From assembly GCF_017051705.1 (NCBI RefSeq), contig NZ_JAFIDJ010000001.1, forward strand, positions 1,130,848 through 1,194,847: 64,000 nucleotides of DNA. Reading direction: 5' to 3'. Below are positions 43,308-52,351 of the stretch, in pieces. This stretch comes from Algoriphagus lutimaris (GTDB lineage Bacteria; Bacteroidota; Bacteroidia; Cytophagales; Cyclobacteriaceae). Position numbers and translations under genes: made by a program. The notes beneath the pieces are model-generated. The model was not told the origin of the DNA. It worked only from the letters and a program-made list of their open reading frames with translations, and did not search any database. Position 1 is the first letter of the stretch, and each line of letters opens with the position of its first letter.

Positions 43308-44762
43308 ATGTTCGAACAAACCTTTAAAAACGTTGACGATATCCTTCACAAAGACGCGGGCTGTGGCTCAGAGCTGGATTATGTGGAGCAGACTTCTTGG
43401 GTGCTTTTCCTAAAATACCTGGATGATCTTGATCAAGATCGGGCTACTGCTGCCGAACTGGAAGGCAAAACTTATACCTCCATCATCAGTCCGGAATATC
43501 AGTGGAGTACTTGGGCTGCACCCAAACTTCCAAACGGAGAACTCGATCACCATAATGCAAAGACTGGGGATGATCTCAATGATTTTGTGAATATCAAACT
43601 CTGGCCTTACCTCAAAAGCTTCAAGCTTTCTGCAGCCAGTCCAGCTACCATAGAATACAAAATCGGAGAAATATTCAGCGAACTCAAAAATCGAATCCAA
43701 AGTGGCTACAACCTTCGGGAAGTCATCAATCTGATCGATTCCCTACGATTCCGAACCTATGCCGAAAAGCATGAAATGTCCCATCTCTATGAGGGGAAAA
43801 TCAAAAACATGGGTAATGCCGGACGTAACGGTGGAGAATACTACACCCCTCGCCCACTGATCACCACGATCATCAAAGTGGTCAATCCACAAATCGGCGA
43901 AACCGTCTATGATGGCGCGGTGGGTTCGGCAGGTTTCCTCTGCGAGGCATTCGACTACATGCGAAACTCCAAGTCACTGACTACTGCTGAATCTGAAATC
44001 CTTCAGAAGCGTACCTTCTACGGAAAGGAAAAGAAATCACTGGCCTACATTATCGGGATTATGAATATGATCCTGCACGGTGTGGAAGCTCCGAACATCA
44101 TCCACACCAATACACTTGCCGAGAATATCGCAGATATTCAGGAAAAGGATAGATACGATGTGGTACTTGCCAACCCTCCCTTCGGAGGAAAAGAAAGAGC
44201 GGAAGTGCAAGAGAACTTCCCGATCCGAACCGGAGAAACCGCCTCCTTATTCCTTCAGCACTTTATAAAAATCCTCAGAGCTGGTGGTCGTGCAGGTGTG
44301 GTCATCAAAAACACCTTCCTGAGTAATACCGATAATGCTTCTATCGCCTTACGAAAGCAACTCTTGGAAAACTGCAACCTGCATACCGTCTTGGATCTTC
44401 CCGGAGGAACCTTCACCGGTGCAGGGGTAAAAACCGTCGTGCTCTTCTTCGAAAAAGGAAGCGCCACAAAAAAAGTCTGGTTCTATTCCCTCAATCTGGA
44501 TCGCAACTTAGGCAAAACCAATCCACTAAATGAAAATGATCTTGCGGAGTTTGTGGAATTACAAAAAACCTTCGCGGATAGCGAAAACTCCTGGACTGTA
44601 AATATCAAGGACGTAGACCAAAACACCTTCGACCTTTCAGTCAAGAACCCAAATAAAAAAGAAGAAGTAGCACTTCGTTCTCCACAAAATATTCTAGAGG
44701 AAATGAAAGCATTGGACGAAGAAACTGCAGAGATCTTAAAATCAATCTTGGAATTGATATGA
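43308..44762 (+). CDS. hsdM: Type I restriction-modification methyltransferase subunit HsdM
   Basis: This 484-residue N6-adenine methyltransferase has an N-terminal HsdM helical domain (about 1-140), the GEYYTPRPLI segment and catalytic motif IV ANPPF at residues 288-292. The S-adenosylmethionine motif I reads YDGAVGSAGFL in place of the usual DPxxGTGGF. With HsdS it methylates the host target site. It overlaps hsdS by 4 bp. The 255-bp spacer upstream has no clear promoter but must hold one. Confidence 0.96.
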   Translation: MFEQTFKNVDDILHKDAGCGSELDYVEQTSWVLFLKYLDDLDQDRATAAELEGKTYTSIISPEYQWSTWAAPKLPNGELDHHNAKTGDDLNDFVNIKLWPYLKSFKLSAASPATIEYKIGEIFSELKNRIQSGYNLREVINLIDSLRFRTYAEKHEMSHLYEGKIKNMGNAGRNGGEYYTPRPLITTIIKVVNPQIGETVYDGAVGSAGFLCEAFDYMRNSKSLTTAESEILQKRTFYGKEKKSLAYIIGIMNMILHGVEAPNIIHTNTLAENIADIQEKDRYDVVLANPPFGGKERAEVQENFPIRTGETASLFLQHFIKILRAGGRAGVVIKNTFLSNTDNASIALRKQLLENCNLHTVLDLPGGTFTGAGVKTVVLFFEKGSATKKVWFYSLNLDRNLGKTNPLNENDLAEFVELQKTFADSENSWTVNIKDVDQNTFDLSVKNPNKKEEVALRSPQNILEEMKALDEETAEILKSILELI

Positions 44763-45895
44763 AAGAAGGTTGGCAATTAAAACAGTTGGGTGAGGTTTGT
44801 ACCTTTATTAATGGAAGGGCATATTCAAAAAATGAACTTTTAGATTCTGGAAAATATCCAGTTTTAAGAGTTGGGAATTTCTTTACTAATAGAGGATGGT
44901 ATTATTCTGATTTAGAATTAGATGAAGATAAATATTGTGAAAATGGTGACTTGCTTTATGCATGGTCGGCATCATTTGGCCCAAGAATTTGGAATGGAGG
45001 AAAGGTAATTTACCATTATCATATTTGGAAAGTTGTTCCTGATTTAAATTATGTAACAAAGGAATACTTATATCAATTATTAGAGTGGGATACTGAAGCT
45101 ATTAAAACTGCACATGGAACAGGTACTACTATGATGCATGTAGGAAAAGGTTCTATTGAAAAACGAATTGTACCTATCCCTCCCCTCCCCGAACAACAAC
45201 GCATTGTTTCCATTTTAGACGAGTGCTTTACGGCGATAGACAAGGCCAAATCCAATGCCGAACAAAACCTCAAAAACGCCAAAGAACTTTTCGAAAGCTA
45301 TTTGCAGGGGGTGTTTGAGAATGGGGATTGGGAAACGAAAACCCTCAATGAAATTGCCGAAAATCTTGACAGTAAAAGAGTTCCGATAACAAAAAGCAAA
45401 AGAGATAGTGGAGACATTCCTTACTATGGTGCTTCAGGAATTGTAGATTATGTTGCAGATTATCTTTTTGATGAAGACTTACTGTGTATTTCAGAAGATG
45501 GAGCAAATCTTTTAGCGCGTACATATCCAATTGCATTTTCAATTTCGGGCAAGACTTGGGTAAACAATCATGCCCACGTCTTAAAGTTCTCTGAGTTGAC
45601 AACTCAGAAATTTATTGAAACATACATTAATTCAATTAGGATTGATGAGTATGTAAGTGGTATGGCTCAACCAAAGTTAAACCAAAGAATGCTCAACAAA
45701 ATCCCCATTCCATTGCCAACTATCGAAGAACAAGAAGCTATAGTGGATAAGATTGATGCCCTGCAAGTAGAAACTGAAAAGCTGGAAACGATCTACAAGC
45801 AGAAACTAGATGACTTAGATGAGTTGAAGAAAAGTGTTTTGAAGAAGGCGTTTAGTGGGGAATTGAAAACAATAAAATTAATAAAAGCGGTATAA
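44759..45895 (+). CDS. hsdS: Type I restriction specificity subunit HsdS
   Basis: This 378-residue protein has two target-recognition domains (about 1-130 and 200-320). Each is followed by a helical spacer, marked by IPPLPEQQRIVSILDECFTAID and PLPTIEEQEAIVDKIDALQ. It defines the bipartite DNA site. Base composition of the first recognition domain is more AT-rich than the flanking hsdM, as expected for exchangeable domains. Its stop overlaps the rloC start by one base (TAATG). Confidence 0.95.
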   Translation: MKEGWQLKQLGEVCTFINGRAYSKNELLDSGKYPVLRVGNFFTNRGWYYSDLELDEDKYCENGDLLYAWSASFGPRIWNGGKVIYHYHIWKVVPDLNYVTKEYLYQLLEWDTEAIKTAHGTGTTMMHVGKGSIEKRIVPIPPLPEQQRIVSILDECFTAIDKAKSNAEQNLKNAKELFESYLQGVFENGDWETKTLNEIAENLDSKRVPITKSKRDSGDIPYYGASGIVDYVADYLFDEDLLCISEDGANLLARTYPIAFSISGKTWVNNHAHVLKFSELTTQKFIETYINSIRIDEYVSGMAQPKLNQRMLNKIPIPLPTIEEQEAIVDKIDALQVETEKLETIYKQKLDDLDELKKSVLKKAFSGELKTIKLIKAV

Positions 45896-48096
45896 TGATT
45901 ACCAAAATTACATTGAATGGCGTTGCCAGTTACAAGAAACCTGCTTCCTTGGAAACAGACATGAAGGTAAATCTTGTATATGGCTTAAATGGAACTGGTA
46001 AAAGCACATTTTCTGATTATCTATACAAACAAGCCGAACAAGATTTTAAAGCATGCTCCATTGAAGGTCTGAATTCGGATGAAGAAATTATCGTTTATAA
46101 TCAATCATTCGTTCAAGACAACTTTTTTCAGCCCGATGCTTTAAAAGGCATATTCACTTTGTCAAAAGAGAACAAGGAAGCAAAAACAAAAATTTTAAAT
46201 GCAGAAAAGGAAATTAAAAGACTTGATGCAGAAAAGATTCAGAAAACTGCGGACTTAAAAAAGGAATCCGACGCAATATCTTTAAAACACGAAAAAGCAA
46301 AAGACAAAGTTTGGGAAATCAAAAAAAACTATACAGGTGGCGACCGAGTATTAGAATTTTGTCTTGAAGGCTACAGAAATGATGGAAAAAAGCTATTGAG
46401 CTACATTGAAAGTTTAAAGAAGCCAGATAGTAAGCCAACCAAAACAACAGACCAAATAAAGGAAGAAGTACAGGCTCTATCAGGCGAGAATGCTCAAAAG
46501 TATATTTTACTCGACCCTATTGATTTTGATGTCGCTGATATTGAAACAGAGCTAATATTTAAAAAGGAGATCGTTGGTAATGAAAATAGCACGGTTTCGG
46601 GTTTAATAAACAAACTTGAAAATTCGGATTGGGTAAAAGATGGATTAAAATACTTGCCAACCAAACTTGAAACCAAGAATGAAACTTGCCCTTTCTGTCA
46701 AGAGCAAACTATTTCAAGTCAATTACTTCAAAGCATCAAAGAATATTTTGATGAATCGTATGAAGCAGATCTGGCAGCATTAAAGGAATTTCGTAGGCAA
46801 TACGCAGAAGCCATTCAGCTAATTCCTGACAAATCAACATACGATAGCAATCCGAAGTTTGAAAATCACAAAAAAGACTTTGAAATAAAATACAATGTAT
46901 TCACTAAGGTTGCAACAGAGAACCTACAGCTAATTGATGATAAAATCAAAACGCCAAGCGTTCAAATCACTTTAAAAAGTTCAGTTGCTTTTTTGACTGC
47001 AATCAATGGAATAATTGAAAACATCAATAAGCAAGTAAAAGAACACAACAAAAAAATCGACCAAAAGGAAACGGCTTTACTCGACCTAAAAACTGACTTT
47101 TGGAATATTATGCGTTGGGAATACGACCAAACATTAAGTTCTTACATTTCTGATAAAGCTCAATACCAAAAAAAGATTGCCGGATTAAATCAAGCAATTG
47201 AAAAATTGGATACAGATATTCAGAAACAAAGAGAAATAATTGTAATACAGCAAAAGCAAACCGTAAATATTGAAGAAGCAATTGCTAACATCAATAACGG
47301 TCTTTTAGAACTTGGCATTCATGACTTCAAGATTAAACAACATGCTGATAATCTTTACAAAATAGTTCGAGAGCAAAACGATAACAAAGTTTTTCTTTCA
47401 CTAAGTGAAGGCGAAAAAATGATAATTAGCTTTTTGTATTTCTTGGAACTGTGTCGTGGAAAAAAGGACGCAACAGAAGCTGCAAAGAAGAAGATTATTG
47501 TCATCGATGACCCCATTTCCAGTCTATCACATATTTATGTTTTTAATGTTGGTAGACTGATTAAGAATGAATTTTTCGGAAAAAAAGAAAAGAAGAATGG
47601 CATTACTACTTGGAATTACAAGTATGAACAAGTCTTTATATTAACACACAGCCTTTATTTTTTCTATGAAATAACCGAAACCAAGCATGATGAAAGAAAA
47701 GAGACACAAAAGCTCTTTAGACTAATTAAAAATGATGTTGGCAGTTACTTTGAAAAACTGACTTATGAATCAATAAAGAATGATTATCAGGCCTATTGGT
47801 ATGTAATTAAAGACCAAAATCAACATCCTGCGTTAATAGCCAATTGCATGAGAAATATTATTGAGTATTTCTTCAACTTTATTGAAAACAAAGACCTGAA
47901 TAATTTCTTTAATCAACCTACTATGCAGGAAATTCGCTTTCAGGCATTTTATAGATACATAAATCGGGAATCGCATTCCTTAGGACAGAATATTTTTGAT
48001 TTTAAAGAGTTCAACTACCAAGACTTTAAAGATGCTTTTTCAGAACTTTTCAAGGTGGCAGGTTACGAAGAACATTATAAAAAAATGATTTCATGA
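45895..48096 (+). CDS. rloC: RloC/PrrC-type anticodon nuclease with ABC ATPase head
   Basis: This 733-residue protein has an N-terminal AAA_13/SMC-like ATPase: Walker A G30-x-x-G-x-G-K-S-T38, NQSFVQDNFF, coiled coils (about 95-135, 395-470) flanking a zinc hook C265-P-F-C268, ABC signature LSEGEK (503-508), Walker B IIVIDDP (534-540) and H-loop His585. The C-terminal part has R653-x3-E657 and H694, matching the Arg-Glu-His nuclease triad of PrrC. Size and zinc hook favour RloC. PrrC and RloC cut host tRNA anticodons when phage disarms the linked type I enzyme. It lies between hsdS and hsdR, the prrC position, overlapping both neighbours. Confidence 0.85.
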   Translation: MITKITLNGVASYKKPASLETDMKVNLVYGLNGTGKSTFSDYLYKQAEQDFKACSIEGLNSDEEIIVYNQSFVQDNFFQPDALKGIFTLSKENKEAKTKILNAEKEIKRLDAEKIQKTADLKKESDAISLKHEKAKDKVWEIKKNYTGGDRVLEFCLEGYRNDGKKLLSYIESLKKPDSKPTKTTDQIKEEVQALSGENAQKYILLDPIDFDVADIETELIFKKEIVGNENSTVSGLINKLENSDWVKDGLKYLPTKLETKNETCPFCQEQTISSQLLQSIKEYFDESYEADLAALKEFRRQYAEAIQLIPDKSTYDSNPKFENHKKDFEIKYNVFTKVATENLQLIDDKIKTPSVQITLKSSVAFLTAINGIIENINKQVKEHNKKIDQKETALLDLKTDFWNIMRWEYDQTLSSYISDKAQYQKKIAGLNQAIEKLDTDIQKQREIIVIQQKQTVNIEEAIANINNGLLELGIHDFKIKQHADNLYKIVREQNDNKVFLSLSEGEKMIISFLYFLELCRGKKDATEAAKKKIIVIDDPISSLSHIYVFNVGRLIKNEFFGKKEKKNGITTWNYKYEQVFILTHSLYFFYEITETKHDERKETQKLFRLIKNDVGSYFEKLTYESIKNDYQAYWYVIKDQNQHPALIANCMRNIIEYFFNFIENKDLNNFFNQPTMQEIRFQAFYRYINRESHSLGQNIFDFKEFNYQDFKDAFSELFKVAGYEEHYKKMIS

Positions 48097-50510
48097 ACGA
48101 ATCCGAAACCCGTGCAGAACTAATTGACCCAAAGCTAAAAGAAGCGGGTTGGGGAATTGTGGAAGGATCAAAAGTCCTTCGAGAGTATCATATCACCGCG
48201 GGTAAGATTCAAGTTGGCGGGCGAGGAAAAAAGCAAATCGCTGATTACGTTCTAGTTTATAAAGGCACTAAACTAGCAATCATCGAAGCCAAAAGTGCAG
48301 ACTTGTCTGTTGGTGAAGGGGTGTTGCAAGCCAAGCTATATGCTGAGAAATTAAAGCTCGCTACCACCTACTCCACCAATGGAAATCATGTTTACCAGAT
48401 CTGCATGGAATCAGGATTGGAAGGATTGGTGGATGATTTTTTAAGTCCCGATGAGTTATGGGAAAAGACTTTCCCAACAACCCAATCTGATGCGAAAGAG
48501 GATTTTTCAGGAGAATGGAGAGAACGATTTGCTGCTGTCCCTTTTGAAGATAAATCGGGAACATGGGAACTTCGATACTATCAGGAAATCGCAGTTGCCA
48601 GAACACTAGAAACCATAGCTAAACAAAAGGATCGCGCTTTATTAACTCTTGCGACAGGAACAGGAAAGACTGCCATCTCTTTTCAAATTGCATGGAAACT
48701 GTTTCAAACAAGATGGAATCTAAATGATCGATCCAAGCATCCTGACGAAGCCAGCCGCAGACCAAGAATTTTGTTTTTGGCAGATAGGAATATTCTGGCG
48801 AATCAAGCCTTTAATTCATTTTCTGCATTTCCAGATGATGCACTCGTTCGAATTAAACCCTCAGAAATAAAGAAAAGTGGCAAAGTACCCACCAATGGAT
48901 CTTTGTTCTTTACCATCTTCCAGACTTTTATGTCAGGAACAGATGAACACGGAAAGCCTGCTCCCTATTTTGGAGAATATCCAAAAGACTACTTTGATTT
49001 AATTATCATAGACGAGTGTCATAGAGGTGGTGCAAATGATGAGAGCAATTGGCGGGCGATTATGGAGTACTTCTCTCCTGCTGTCCAATTGGGTTTGACT
49101 GCTACACCCAAGCGAAAGGATAACGTAGATACCTACCGCTATTTCGGCGAACCGATTTATGTGTATTCGCTGAAGGAAGGAATCAATGATGGTTTCTTAA
49201 CTCCTTTCAAAGTAAAACGAGTTCAGACCACACTGGATGATTACATCTATACTTCTGATGATGAAGTTCTGGAGGGAGAAATCGAAGATGGAAAACGCTA
49301 CGAGGAAAAGGATTTTAACAGAACCATAGAGATAGAAGAGCGAGAGCGTAAGCGAGTGCAAATCTATCTGGGAGATAGTAATCAAAAAGAAAAAGCAATT
49401 GTCTTCTGTGCGAATCAGGCACATGCAGCACTGATCCGAGATCTAATCAATCAGGAAAGTAAGAGCAAAGACCCTTTCTATTGCGTTCGTGTGACCGCTA
49501 ACGATGGAGCAGAAGGTGAATCACAGCTGAAAAAGTTTCAGGATAACGAAAACTCTATCCCTACCATCCTGACTACTTCCCAAAAGCTATCAACCGGTGT
49601 GGATGCCAGGAATGTCAGGAATATTGTGTTGTTACGGCCTGTTAATTCCATGATTGAGTTTAAACAGATTGTAGGTCGAGGAACACGGGTTTTCGATGGA
49701 AAAGAATTTTTTACCATTTACGATTATGTAAATGCAAACCATCATTTCGCTGATCCAGAATGGGATGGAGAACCCGCTGAGCCAGAAGTGGTACTTGGTG
49801 ATCCCCCTTTGGATACGCCATGCAAAGAGTGCGGAGAACTGATTTGTGTTTGCGTCAAAGAGCCAGCAGCCCCTTGCCTTGTTTGTGGTGAATCGCCTTG
49901 CACCTGTGATAAGAAGTCAAAGAAAGTAAAAGTCAAGTTAGCCAGAGGAAAAGACCGGACGATCCAGCACATGATGTCTACCTCTTTTTGGAGTGCAGAT
50001 GGAAAGCCTATTTCATCAGAAGAATTTATGGCAGAATTATTCGGAGAACTTCCAAAGCTATTTAAAGACGAAGAAGAGTTAAGAGCTATTTGGGGCAATC
50101 CAGTAACCAGACGAACATTTTTGGAGAGTTTGGATGAAATGGGTTTTCCTAAGGATGACCTTCTCACACTTCAGAAGCTGGTAAATATGGAGAAGAGTGA
50201 TCTTTTTGATGTATTGGAGTATGTCTTCAATGGAGACTTTATCGCTAAATCCAGAGCCGAACGCGCTCAATTAGCCAAACAAGCTGTTGTTCCCTTATTG
50301 AATACCAACCAGCGAGAATTTATTGATTTTGTCCTTGAAAAATATGTGGAAGTTGGAATTGAAGAACTCGACGATTCCAAGTTAAAATCCTTAATCGAAA
50401 ATAAATACCAAAGCTTACCCGATGGCTTAAGTGTTTTAGGTAATGCCGGAGAGGTAAGGAAGATGTTTATAGAATTTCAGCAGTATTTGTACAAGGATGT
50501 AGTGGCTTAA
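48093..50510 (+). CDS. hsdR: Type I restriction endonuclease subunit HsdR (EcoEI-like)
   Basis: This 805-residue protein has an N-terminal nuclease with D51 and E65-x-K67 (PD-(D/E)xK type), a superfamily 2 translocase with Walker A ATGTGKT (187-193) and DECH (307-310), and an EcoEI-type C-terminal domain (about 640-800). Between translocase and C-terminus, residues 577-605 hold eight cysteines as two CxxC-x4-CxC sets, probably binding zinc. It cleaves unmethylated DNA after translocation. It overlaps rloC by 4 bp and is followed 2 bp later by an unknown gene. Confidence 0.96.
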   Translation: MNESETRAELIDPKLKEAGWGIVEGSKVLREYHITAGKIQVGGRGKKQIADYVLVYKGTKLAIIEAKSADLSVGEGVLQAKLYAEKLKLATTYSTNGNHVYQICMESGLEGLVDDFLSPDELWEKTFPTTQSDAKEDFSGEWRERFAAVPFEDKSGTWELRYYQEIAVARTLETIAKQKDRALLTLATGTGKTAISFQIAWKLFQTRWNLNDRSKHPDEASRRPRILFLADRNILANQAFNSFSAFPDDALVRIKPSEIKKSGKVPTNGSLFFTIFQTFMSGTDEHGKPAPYFGEYPKDYFDLIIIDECHRGGANDESNWRAIMEYFSPAVQLGLTATPKRKDNVDTYRYFGEPIYVYSLKEGINDGFLTPFKVKRVQTTLDDYIYTSDDEVLEGEIEDGKRYEEKDFNRTIEIEERERKRVQIYLGDSNQKEKAIVFCANQAHAALIRDLINQESKSKDPFYCVRVTANDGAEGESQLKKFQDNENSIPTILTTSQKLSTGVDARNVRNIVLLRPVNSMIEFKQIVGRGTRVFDGKEFFTIYDYVNANHHFADPEWDGEPAEPEVVLGDPPLDTPCKECGELICVCVKEPAAPCLVCGESPCTCDKKSKKVKVKLARGKDRTIQHMMSTSFWSADGKPISSEEFMAELFGELPKLFKDEEELRAIWGNPVTRRTFLESLDEMGFPKDDLLTLQKLVNMEKSDLFDVLEYVFNGDFIAKSRAERAQLAKQAVVPLLNTNQREFIDFVLEKYVEVGIEELDDSKLKSLIENKYQSLPDGLSVLGNAGEVRKMFIEFQQYLYKDVVA

Positions 50511-50512
50511 TT

Positions 50513-51097
50513 ATGAAAAAATTTAACACATCATTATTTCAAATAAAAAATGGAATTCGAAGTAATATTCTTTGGGATTATACAGATTTATATTTTTCAC
50601 CAATAATTGGTGAAAGGTGGGACTACTATGATGTTTATGATTTCAATAATTCATTTAGCTTTTATTTCAAATTTGATTTTGAAGATGATTTCATTTTAGA
50701 GAAATTTGAAGAGGTTTATAGAGAAAAATTTAAATTAGAAATTTTTCATTTTCCTGAACCTTGGTTAACAATACCATATTTAAGATTTTACCACCCTTTC
50801 ATTAATATCACAAGTATAAGTTTCCAATATATTCATCCAATTCATGATATTTATGTCATTAATAGACATGGAGAAAATTTAAGGATTTCTGATTATTTAA
50901 TATTATTGTTCCAAGAGGATATAAAATTATATTTTGAAATAGAAGAAAATGAAAAAATATCCGATGAAATAGCAATTGAGTATTTAGAGGAAGTTTACCC
51001 AGATTTATTTTTTGAATTGTCTAATAGACATATGCTTAACGAACATGGCTACTACGCTGAAATTTATAATGAAATAATTAATCAGATTTTTAATTAG
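50513..51097 (+). CDS. Acidic hypothetical protein coupled to hsdR
   Basis: This 194-residue protein has no recognised family. It is rich in aromatic residues (many Phe and Tyr) and strongly acidic, with 35 Asp/Glu against 16 Lys/Arg. There is no signal or membrane segment. The gene starts 2 bp after the hsdR stop, so it is translated with the restriction operon. Its base composition is clearly more AT-rich than hsdR, suggesting separate acquisition. A role with or against the restriction complex is an open guess. Confidence 0.6.
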   Translation: MKKFNTSLFQIKNGIRSNILWDYTDLYFSPIIGERWDYYDVYDFNNSFSFYFKFDFEDDFILEKFEEVYREKFKLEIFHFPEPWLTIPYLRFYHPFINITSISFQYIHPIHDIYVINRHGENLRISDYLILLFQEDIKLYFEIEENEKISDEIAIEYLEEVYPDLFFELSNRHMLNEHGYYAEIYNEIINQIFN

Positions 51098-51123
51098 TTT
51101 TTAAACTTACTGTCACTTTATAA

Positions 51124-51546
51124 ATGATTACTTCTTCACTTATTTCAGCTTTTGCACAAGGTTGTCTTTTCAAGATTGTTAATCGGATTATACTTCAGCT
51201 TCAGGGAATTAAAGAATCCCTTTCTGGAGATTATTCTGGTTTAGAAAATACCTGGGATGAAATCTGCGTACAAATTCAAGACGAGTATTCTATTCATTGG
51301 AATATGTATGAGGAAATTGTGCTGAATCTTATCGAAGTAGAAGTTAACAAAATACCTCCTCATGAGCAGCAGGCAATTTGGTTGGAAACAGATTCGGCCT
51401 ATTCCTATGATGAGGATGAGGATGAGGATGAATTAGAGTCCAAGTATGATCCTTCTGATGTTTATCACCACATTAAAAGTATCATCTTTCAAAAGGCTGG
51501 GGATTGGAGTAATAAGAGGATTAGGAGTTATTTGGAAAGAGGATGA
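51124..51546 (+). CDS. Hypothetical protein with acidic run
   Basis: This 140-residue protein has no recognised family. An Asp/Glu-rich run (DEDEDEDELE, about 97-106) is encoded by a GATGAG trinucleotide-like repeat and could vary in length. The N-terminal 30 residues are hydrophobic and helical. It starts 26 bp after the previous gene and ends 37 bp before the HNH gene, so the three may be one operon with the restriction genes. Confidence 0.55.
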   Translation: MITSSLISAFAQGCLFKIVNRIILQLQGIKESLSGDYSGLENTWDEICVQIQDEYSIHWNMYEEIVLNLIEVEVNKIPPHEQQAIWLETDSAYSYDEDEDEDELESKYDPSDVYHHIKSIIFQKAGDWSNKRIRSYLERG

Positions 51547-51583
51547 ATATAAGTTTTGTCTCCAAACTTTTAATTTAAATAAG

Positions 51584-52351
51584 ATGGCTATAAAAAGTAG
51601 ATTACAATTATTTAAGGATTTGAGCGTGCATCCCAAAAACCCCTATTGGGCATGGTGCGCTAAAAATGAATCTATCAAACGAGCAATTTTTACGGTTTGG
51701 GAGGACTTGGAATTGCCAGACAAAACATGGTTTTTGCATGAGGATAATAGTACATTTCAAAGAAGGAATGGTTTTAAAGATCAAAAGGAAACTATTGACC
51801 TAGCAATTCAAGAAAACTATGAAATTTTTGGAATTATATGCGTGGCTAAAGACCCATACTTAGACCCAAGGACTATTAAGGAAGTAGAAGGAGATTTTGT
51901 TTACAAATTAGAGTTCATAGAAAAAAGTGACCAAATCTATGTAAAGGCTAAAAAAAGAGTTCCTACAGTTGAAATCATGCGCAACGATCAAAGGAAACTT
52001 TCCGGCTACAGTGGACTACAAGACCTAGACACTACCAGTCTTGGTACAGATAACCCTGACCGCACGAAATCCATGGGTTACATTATTAAAAGAGATAATA
52101 ATGTAAGAAAAGCAGTAATTAACAGAGCAAATGGAAAATGTGAATACTGTGGAAAAGAGACATTCGTAACCCTTTCAGGTAAAAATTATCTTGAGGCACA
52201 TCATATTATTTCCCTCGCGCAAAAGGGTACCGATAGAATGGATAATGTGATTGCATTATGCTCAGAACATCACAGAGAAGCACATTTTGGTGTGAATTCT
52301 GAAGCACTTGAAAAAGAGTTTATAGAAATTTTAGAAAATAAAAAAATGTAA
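51584..52351 (+). CDS. HNH endonuclease, McrA-like
   Basis: The ATG at 51584 gives a 255-residue protein; an earlier frame-compatible ATG would overlap the previous gene deeply. The N-terminal 150 residues are an unknown alpha/beta region. The C-terminal HNH domain has zinc-binding C186-x2-C189, LEAHHIISLAQKGTD, DNVIALCSEHHREAH. This is the type found in McrA-like restriction enzymes that may read modified DNA. It lies in the defence island downstream of the type I operon. Confidence 0.85.
   Translation: MAIKSRLQLFKDLSVHPKNPYWAWCAKNESIKRAIFTVWEDLELPDKTWFLHEDNSTFQRRNGFKDQKETIDLAIQENYEIFGIICVAKDPYLDPRTIKEVEGDFVYKLEFIEKSDQIYVKAKKRVPTVEIMRNDQRKLSGYSGLQDLDTTSLGTDNPDRTKSMGYIIKRDNNVRKAVINRANGKCEYCGKETFVTLSGKNYLEAHHIISLAQKGTDRMDNVIALCSEHHREAHFGVNSEALEKEFIEILENKKM

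Follow-up and report, generated by a model that had tools for sequence, protein, structure and literature searches.

Whether a type I restriction enzyme regulates the nuclease encoded within its operon, or only carries it, is an old question, and it is raised again by a locus of Algoriphagus lutimaris (NCBI RefSeq assembly GCF_017051705.1). The 64,000-nucleotide stretch analyzed here, hereafter called the window, covers positions 1,130,848 to 1,194,847 of the forward strand of contig NZ_JAFIDJ010000001.1 and contains a complete type I restriction-modification (R-M) operon in the order hsdM, hsdS, rloC and hsdR, with neighbouring genes overlapping by 1-4 bases. The locus presents a well-formed RloC in the original genomic setting of its family, in an environmental genus of the Bacteroidota. 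We consider it probable that this gene encodes an RloC-type anticodon nuclease residing as interchangeable cargo in the hsdS-hsdR slot of an EcoAI-class operon, self-latched and released by DNA ends.

The operon is intact in its anatomy. On the forward strand, hsdM (43308..44762) encodes an intact type I methylase subunit of 484 amino acids (aa), hsdS (44759..45895) a specificity subunit of 378 aa, rloC (45895..48096) a protein of 733 aa followed by a stop codon, and hsdR (48093..50510) an intact restriction subunit of 805 aa belonging to the EcoAI/FtnUII class. None of the four frames is interrupted by an internal stop, and the catalytic motifs are kept, NPPF in HsdM and EAK, GTGKT and DECH in HsdR; with the NCBIfam model of the EcoAI/FtnUII family, the latter reaches 772 bits (cut-off 550). 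The rloC gene shares one base with hsdS (TAATG) and four with hsdR, which confirms from the coordinates the initial annotation of a gene lying between hsdS and hsdR and overlapping both. From this overlap, rloC is probably co-transcribed with the hsd genes. Its G+C content is 33%, as compared with 45% for hsdM, 42% for hsdR and 39% for the window.

What kind of protein does rloC encode? RloC was defined by Davidov and Kaufmann (PMC2610378) by ABC motifs like those of PrrC, an insert bearing a CxxC hook, a size of 658-897 aa and an Arg-x3-Glu-x36-52-His set in which a serine often precedes the histidine. The window protein displays every one of these sequence features. Its ABC ATPase carries the Walker A motif GLNGTGKS (residues 30-37; 45982..46005, +), the signature LSEGEK (residues 503-508; 47401..47418, +) and the Walker B/D-loop DDPISSL (residues 538-544; 47506..47526, +). 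The putative zinc hook CPFC (residues 265-268, with C265 and C268; 46687..46698, +) sits between Walker A and the signature, hence in the insert splitting the ATPase domain. The C-terminal PrrC/RloC nuclease domain contains R653-x3-E657 (47851..47865, +) and, after 36 residues, H694 (47974..47976, +) with S693 just before it. A Pfam AAA_13 match spans nearly the whole protein (390 bits), and PADLOC assigns it to PDC-S06 (849 bits) and, weakly, matches its residues 465-725 to PrrC as well (30.6 bits). When the protein was shuffled 5000 times, R-x3-E-x36-52-H appeared in the last part in 4.2% of cases, a CxxC at residues 200-330 in 0.7% and both together in 0.02%. Judged by its sequence, the window protein is an RloC and a new member of the family. 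The initial annotation had recognized the ABC head and had placed the hook cysteines and catalytic set at the correct residues, and the family membership it proposed is borne out by the agreement between these motifs and the profile comparison described below.

The conservation of these residues was examined in an alignment of 22 full-length proteins, the window protein and those of 21 loci, which are 26-91% identical to the query; the RloC of Algoriphagus lacus, cut at a contig end (L004/L010), was excluded from alignments and tree. C265-P-F-C-Q269, R653, E657, S693 and H694 are invariant in 22/22 proteins and identity outside the motifs is low. The triad, whose absence from homologues had been set beforehand as an argument against the assignment, is retained in every full-length homologue of this alignment. 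In a wider set of 35 rows, the Arg, Glu and His are found in 28, six proteins stop before the region (L029-L034) and one (L060) does not align with the Glu and His. The ABC head and CPFC hook are retained in L029-L033 (for instance L029:1492-3330), where the protein stops at about 613-622 aa, and L034 is further broken into two frames. A tblastn search with the C-terminus of a relative returned no significant nuclease part near the L029-L034 loci; a gene that we take to be BchL-like lies upstream in four of these six.

For comparison with PrrC, 392 genomes were searched, 23 of which matched, and the ten proteins whose loci were returned were used. They measure 375-419 aa, all possess the triad, with a Glu-His spacing of 31-32 residues, and have no CxxC. 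Profile-profile comparison (hhalign) of the RloC and PrrC alignments gave a probability of 97.2 and an E-value of 2.8e-11, with R653, E657 and H694 falling on the PrrC triad. The nuclease domains of PrrC and RloC have both been placed in the HEPN superfamily (PMC3710099). Membership in PrrC itself was considered and rejected, the window protein differing from the ten PrrC proteins by its 733 aa, its CPFC hook and its 36-residue Glu-His spacing.

How did this gene come to reside in its operon? Close relatives were found by exact peptide patterns, so the sample is biased towards near kin. The RloC proteins of Chryseobacterium koreense (L006), Lunatimonas salinarum (L007) and Sediminibacterium sp. 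C3 (L008) are 89-91% identical to that of the window, whereas the hsd products encoded beside them are only 68% (HsdM), 61% (HsdR) and 26-27% (HsdS) identical. Since the reverse pattern is seen in Candidatus Tenebribacter (L011), with 80% identity for HsdM, 68% for HsdR and only 53% for RloC, constraint on RloC does not explain this contrast. In a nucleotide comparison with L006 and L008, identity is about 0.5 in hsdS and climbs to 0.85-0.94 over rloC, the change falling some 20 bases upstream of the start codon. Past the rloC stop it falls within roughly the first 60 bases and averages about 0.57 over 200 bases. The right edge of the exchange is near the conserved bases with which hsdR begins. 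The left edge has left a hybrid C-terminus in HsdS: the window protein reads FSGEL, matching the F-x-G-E/A-L of all eight genus relatives, and then KLIKAV, similar to the tails of L006-L008 (KLIEAE or ELIEAE), whereas LTGREVEV-like tails are found in seven of the eight genus relatives.

Phylogenies point to the same event. These were quick trees with support from the Shimodaira-Hasegawa-like approximate likelihood ratio test (SH-aLRT) only, and rows L034, L058 and L060 had been dropped beforehand from that of RloC. The window protein and L006-L008 form a supported clade in the RloC tree. The RloC identities had led us to submit this grouping to the approximately unbiased (AU) test. It is rejected for HsdR (p 1.3e-35) and for HsdM (p 1.4e-81), in whose trees the window groups with six genus relatives (nearest 97-98% identical) and the genus member L107 stands elsewhere. 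The simplest reading of these sequences is that rloC, together with about 20 bases of donor hsdS, entered the operon by recombination at short conserved ends; the hsdS tail suggests the direction of the exchange. The approximate cassette (45873..48110, +) would thus comprise the last 20 or so bases of hsdS and the whole of rloC, extending to the conserved start of hsdR.

The same slot accommodates other genes in related operons. Within the genus, 9 of 73 genomes (window included) encode an HsdR homologue at an E-value of 1e-150 or better, and extra coding sequence is present between hsdS and hsdR in all nine, consisting of non-RloC genes in each of the eight relatives. A KAP NTPase (PADLOC PDC-S20) occupies the slot of L101, L102, L104 and L107, and a HipA-like kinase paired with a DUF3037 protein (PDC-M66A/B) that of L103. 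In L106 the slot encodes a 699-aa protein (L106:5472-7568, -) with an HSDR_N-like region (residues 481-619) just below the Pfam cut-off, for which a PADLOC scan gave zero matches. L108 carries a helix-turn-helix (HTH) plus M78-domain RmrA-like gene and a PIN gene. A 192-aa slot gene is weakly 23S-IVP-like in L100, and BLAST groups the copies of L104 and L108 with it. The hsdR gene of L108 (G016) is in two frames, and this operon may have lost restriction while retaining its slot genes. At the level of the phylum, 38 of 395 genomes matched (window included), and 31 further operons were fetched, 29 of them with an hsdS match on the contig. Slot open reading frames (ORFs) were called mechanically and family scans made on representatives only; on this basis, 5 of the 29 operons have no insert (gap of at most 22 bases) and 20 have at least one same-strand slot ORF of at least 90 aa. 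Their contents include Schlafen AlbA_2 proteins, relatives of PDC-M30A and PDC-M41A, an Xre-RES pair and also a transposase. By its place between hsdS and hsdR, and because sister operons lack it or have other genes there, the window rloC qualifies as rlo cargo. The PDC names, however, stem from an embedding survey whose families are described as identified through guilt-by-embedding and as mostly unvalidated. Because the families were found in this manner, we rejected the names as independent proof that the slot genes serve defence, an argument that would be circular.

Several further arrangements were seen in and around these operons. L007 contains a tandem cargo between hsdS and hsdR (L007:3070-6710), in which rloC is accompanied by a gene for a Schlafen AlbA_2/HATPase_c_4 protein. 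The hsdM-hsdS gaps of L011, L054, L108, L129 and L116 house genes of another class, for Bro-N, ORF6N, RhuM, YhcG nuclease and a protein with a Shedu SduA C-terminal domain. Beside the hsdM-hsdS-rloC set of L044, a 495-aa protein (L044:10536-12020) combines a cytidine/dCMP deaminase domain and a RecG-type HATPase_c_4 domain. Downstream of hsdR in the window (50513-52351) are found ORFs of 194 aa (24% G+C) and 140 aa, both without family matches, and a 301-aa HNH protein, encoded in a frame that shares about 100 bases with the 140-aa ORF.

Linkage of rloC to hsd genes was counted in 30 relatives, window included; G028, G038, L006-L009, L011 and L012 are among them, and L010, which duplicates the G038 contig, and L013, where a contig of 5.5 kb covers the RloC end only, were left out. 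Ten are hsd-linked (window, L006, L007, L008, L011, L012, G028, G416, G120 and G153); in the other 20, neither hsdM nor hsdS occurs within 5 kb and hsdR is not linked. The order hsdS-rloC-hsdR is found in six: the window, L006, L007 (where a further gene precedes hsdR), L008, L011 and G028; additional cases may be concealed by short contigs. Mapped on the RloC tree, linkage changed at least six times, or at least four if G416 and G120, in which the order hsdS-rloC is missing, count as unlinked. Within the genus, G028 encodes an RloC of 27-29% identity, also between hsdS and hsdR, in another type I operon with an HsdR of 1057 aa. RloC has thus reached the slot at least twice in the genus. The RloC of A. 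lacus (G038) is 69% identical and cut at the end of a contig on which no hsdM or hsdS family match was found; the own hsd operon of this genome has a KAP gene as cargo. Plasmid relatives were matched in 211 records, and none of the five viewed is surrounded by a type I operon, one of them being transposon-interrupted and adjoining a type II system. A phage collection yielded nine records with distant RloC relatives (<60% identity), and a scan of viral_contigs yielded no RloC relative.

The mode of action of such an enzyme can be proposed by analogy with published relatives. In RloC of Geobacillus kaustophilus, alanine at any triad residue abolished activity and hook mutations raised it (PMC2610378); linear DNA and ATP hydrolysis were needed (PMC3874168). 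The native RloC of Acinetobacter baylyi is reported to be activated by DNA breaks, to cleave tRNA-Glu and tRNA-Gln and to behave in the same way in R-M mutants (PMC3874168), and a review likewise gives DNA breaks as the RloC trigger (PMC12707154). Published members of the family cut tRNA with removal of the wobble nucleotide and respond to zinc and to DNA ends (PMC2610378, PMC3874168). By this analogy, the Rad50-like ABC head and the zinc hook of the window protein would hold its C-terminal nuclease off, until DNA ends arising from phage DNA cleavage, from host DNA breakdown during infection or from damage, together with ATP hydrolysis, release it. R653, E657 and H694 would then cut tRNA in the anticodon loop, translation would stop and phage growth would be aborted. 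Co-transcription with hsd would provide shared expression and shared transfer, and a physical latch formed by HsdRMS would be unneeded.

The foremost alternative follows PrrC: the type I enzyme would bind and silence RloC, and a phage anti-restriction protein would set it free. The window gene does overlap its neighbours and occupies the slot held by prrC in EcoprrI, a linked RloC may differ from unlinked ones, and conserved HsdM or HsdR surfaces could serve as a latch for linked copies. Inactivation of type I R-M has also been stated as the RloC trigger, without a test there (PMC12322248). Yet essentially one rloC is found with HsdM, HsdR and HsdS merely 68%, 61% and 26-27% identical, most of the 30 counted relatives are unlinked, the hook absent from PrrC is kept in the window protein, and R-M mutations left activation unchanged in A. 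baylyi (PMC3874168). We rank a self-latched nuclease first and control by the type I enzyme second, as the swaps of partners and the frequent unlinked kin fit a latch of its own; control by the type I enzyme appears unlikely to us, although it is the best of the alternatives. Of the two triggers proposed by the initial annotation, DNA damage fits the published work on RloC, and phage-blocked restriction is doubtful, being the behaviour of PrrC and matching poorly a gene that changed hsd partners and is often hsd-free.

An unlikely and speculative variant considers the slot as a plug-in effector port, in which type I cleavage of phage DNA makes the very ends that activate the neighbouring RloC. 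Translation arrest would then follow whenever restriction cuts the phage DNA without clearing the infection, reversing the sign of the PrrC logic, in which blocked restriction turns the nuclease on.

The substrate, too, could be other than proposed, the window protein being an RNase of the same fold whose main target is another RNA or another site of tRNA. Published members do differ in their substrates, which are tRNA-Lys for PrrC but tRNA-Glu and tRNA-Gln for A. baylyi RloC. Some enzymes with HEPN domains cut mRNA (PMC3710099), and identity outside the motifs is low. The triad is nevertheless in register with that of PrrC, and the RloC members assayed in the papers cited cut the anticodon loop (PMC2610378, PMC3874168), so we hold this option to be improbable. 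A decayed or non-nucleolytic passenger keeping only the function of its ABC head, for which the nuclease-less relatives with open ABC heads (L029-L033) offer a precedent, is very improbable in view of motifs that are all intact in the window and in 89-91% identical kin of three other genera.

A self-latched anticodon nuclease therefore remains our preferred reading, and several observations weigh against it. In RloC the hook insert is held to form an antiparallel coiled coil, and coiled-coil periodicity in the window protein is weak by a crude heptad score. The six genomes of L029-L034 (genus code g89) have no nuclease region, and L060, a streptococcal prophage protein annotated as RloC, has Asp at the positions of both E657 and H694. 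Searches of the PDB retrieved no RloC or PrrC chain with the protein sequence (one match at E 0.61) and none with the family profile (ten weak matches at E 0.002-0.01, to AriA, SMC, Rad50-like and other chains), and the PrrC profile gave zero matches. Finally, the rloC of A. baylyi is unlinked to the hsd genes of that organism, and the authors of that work leave R-M control during infection open (PMC3874168).

The kind of protein and its setting were already known. The name RloC derives from genes in the type I loci of Campylobacter jejuni (PMC2610378), where rlo designates R-linked ORFs between hsdR and hsdS, and mlo those between hsdS and hsdM, a distinct feature of the C. jejuni hsd loci (PMC5183652, there citing Miller 2005). 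As of 2008, RloC was linked to type I or III loci in 8 of 73 cases (PMC2610378). More recently, DarTG2 was described between hsdS and hsdR, a site called a potential recombination hotspot (PMC12255303), and TgvAB was found embedded in a Vibrio type I operon and placed like C. jejuni RloF (PMC11411939). The initial annotation had pointed to the union of a PrrC position with an RloC hook; rlo genes being defined by that very position, this combination is not new, and with DarTG2 and TgvAB as further precedents we rejected novelty of the embedded position. Among the papers searched, none names both Algoriphagus and RloC. What the present analysis usefully adds is a clean exchange of a single gene and the variety of cargo found on related backbones. 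Such natural swaps, with one rloC beside two diverged hsd sets and related hsd sets beside several kinds of cargo, make testable the question of regulation as opposed to carriage; if carriage is all there is, PrrC would be the exception among nucleases embedded in this way.

Compared with the RloC of G. kaustophilus, A. baylyi and C. jejuni (rloC/E/G) and with PADLOC PDC-S06, the window protein shares the ABC motifs, the CxxC hook, the size and the triad with Ser before His, and with C. jejuni RloC also its place inside a type I locus. It differs in that most published RloC are unlinked to R-M and that its own activity, substrate and trigger are predicted only. DarTG2, TgvAB and C. jejuni RloF are likewise embedded in type I operons, DarTG2 and RloF between hsdS and hsdR, but are effectors unrelated to RloC. 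With the PrrC of EcoprrI, the window protein has in common a homologous C-terminal domain, a triad in register and a gene inside a type I operon. PrrC is, in contrast, about half the size (about 340-420 aa), has the hook in 0/10 proteins and a Glu-His spacing of 31-32 residues instead of 36, and is silenced by its linked type IC enzyme, whereas the HsdR beside the window rloC is of the EcoAI/FtnUII class.

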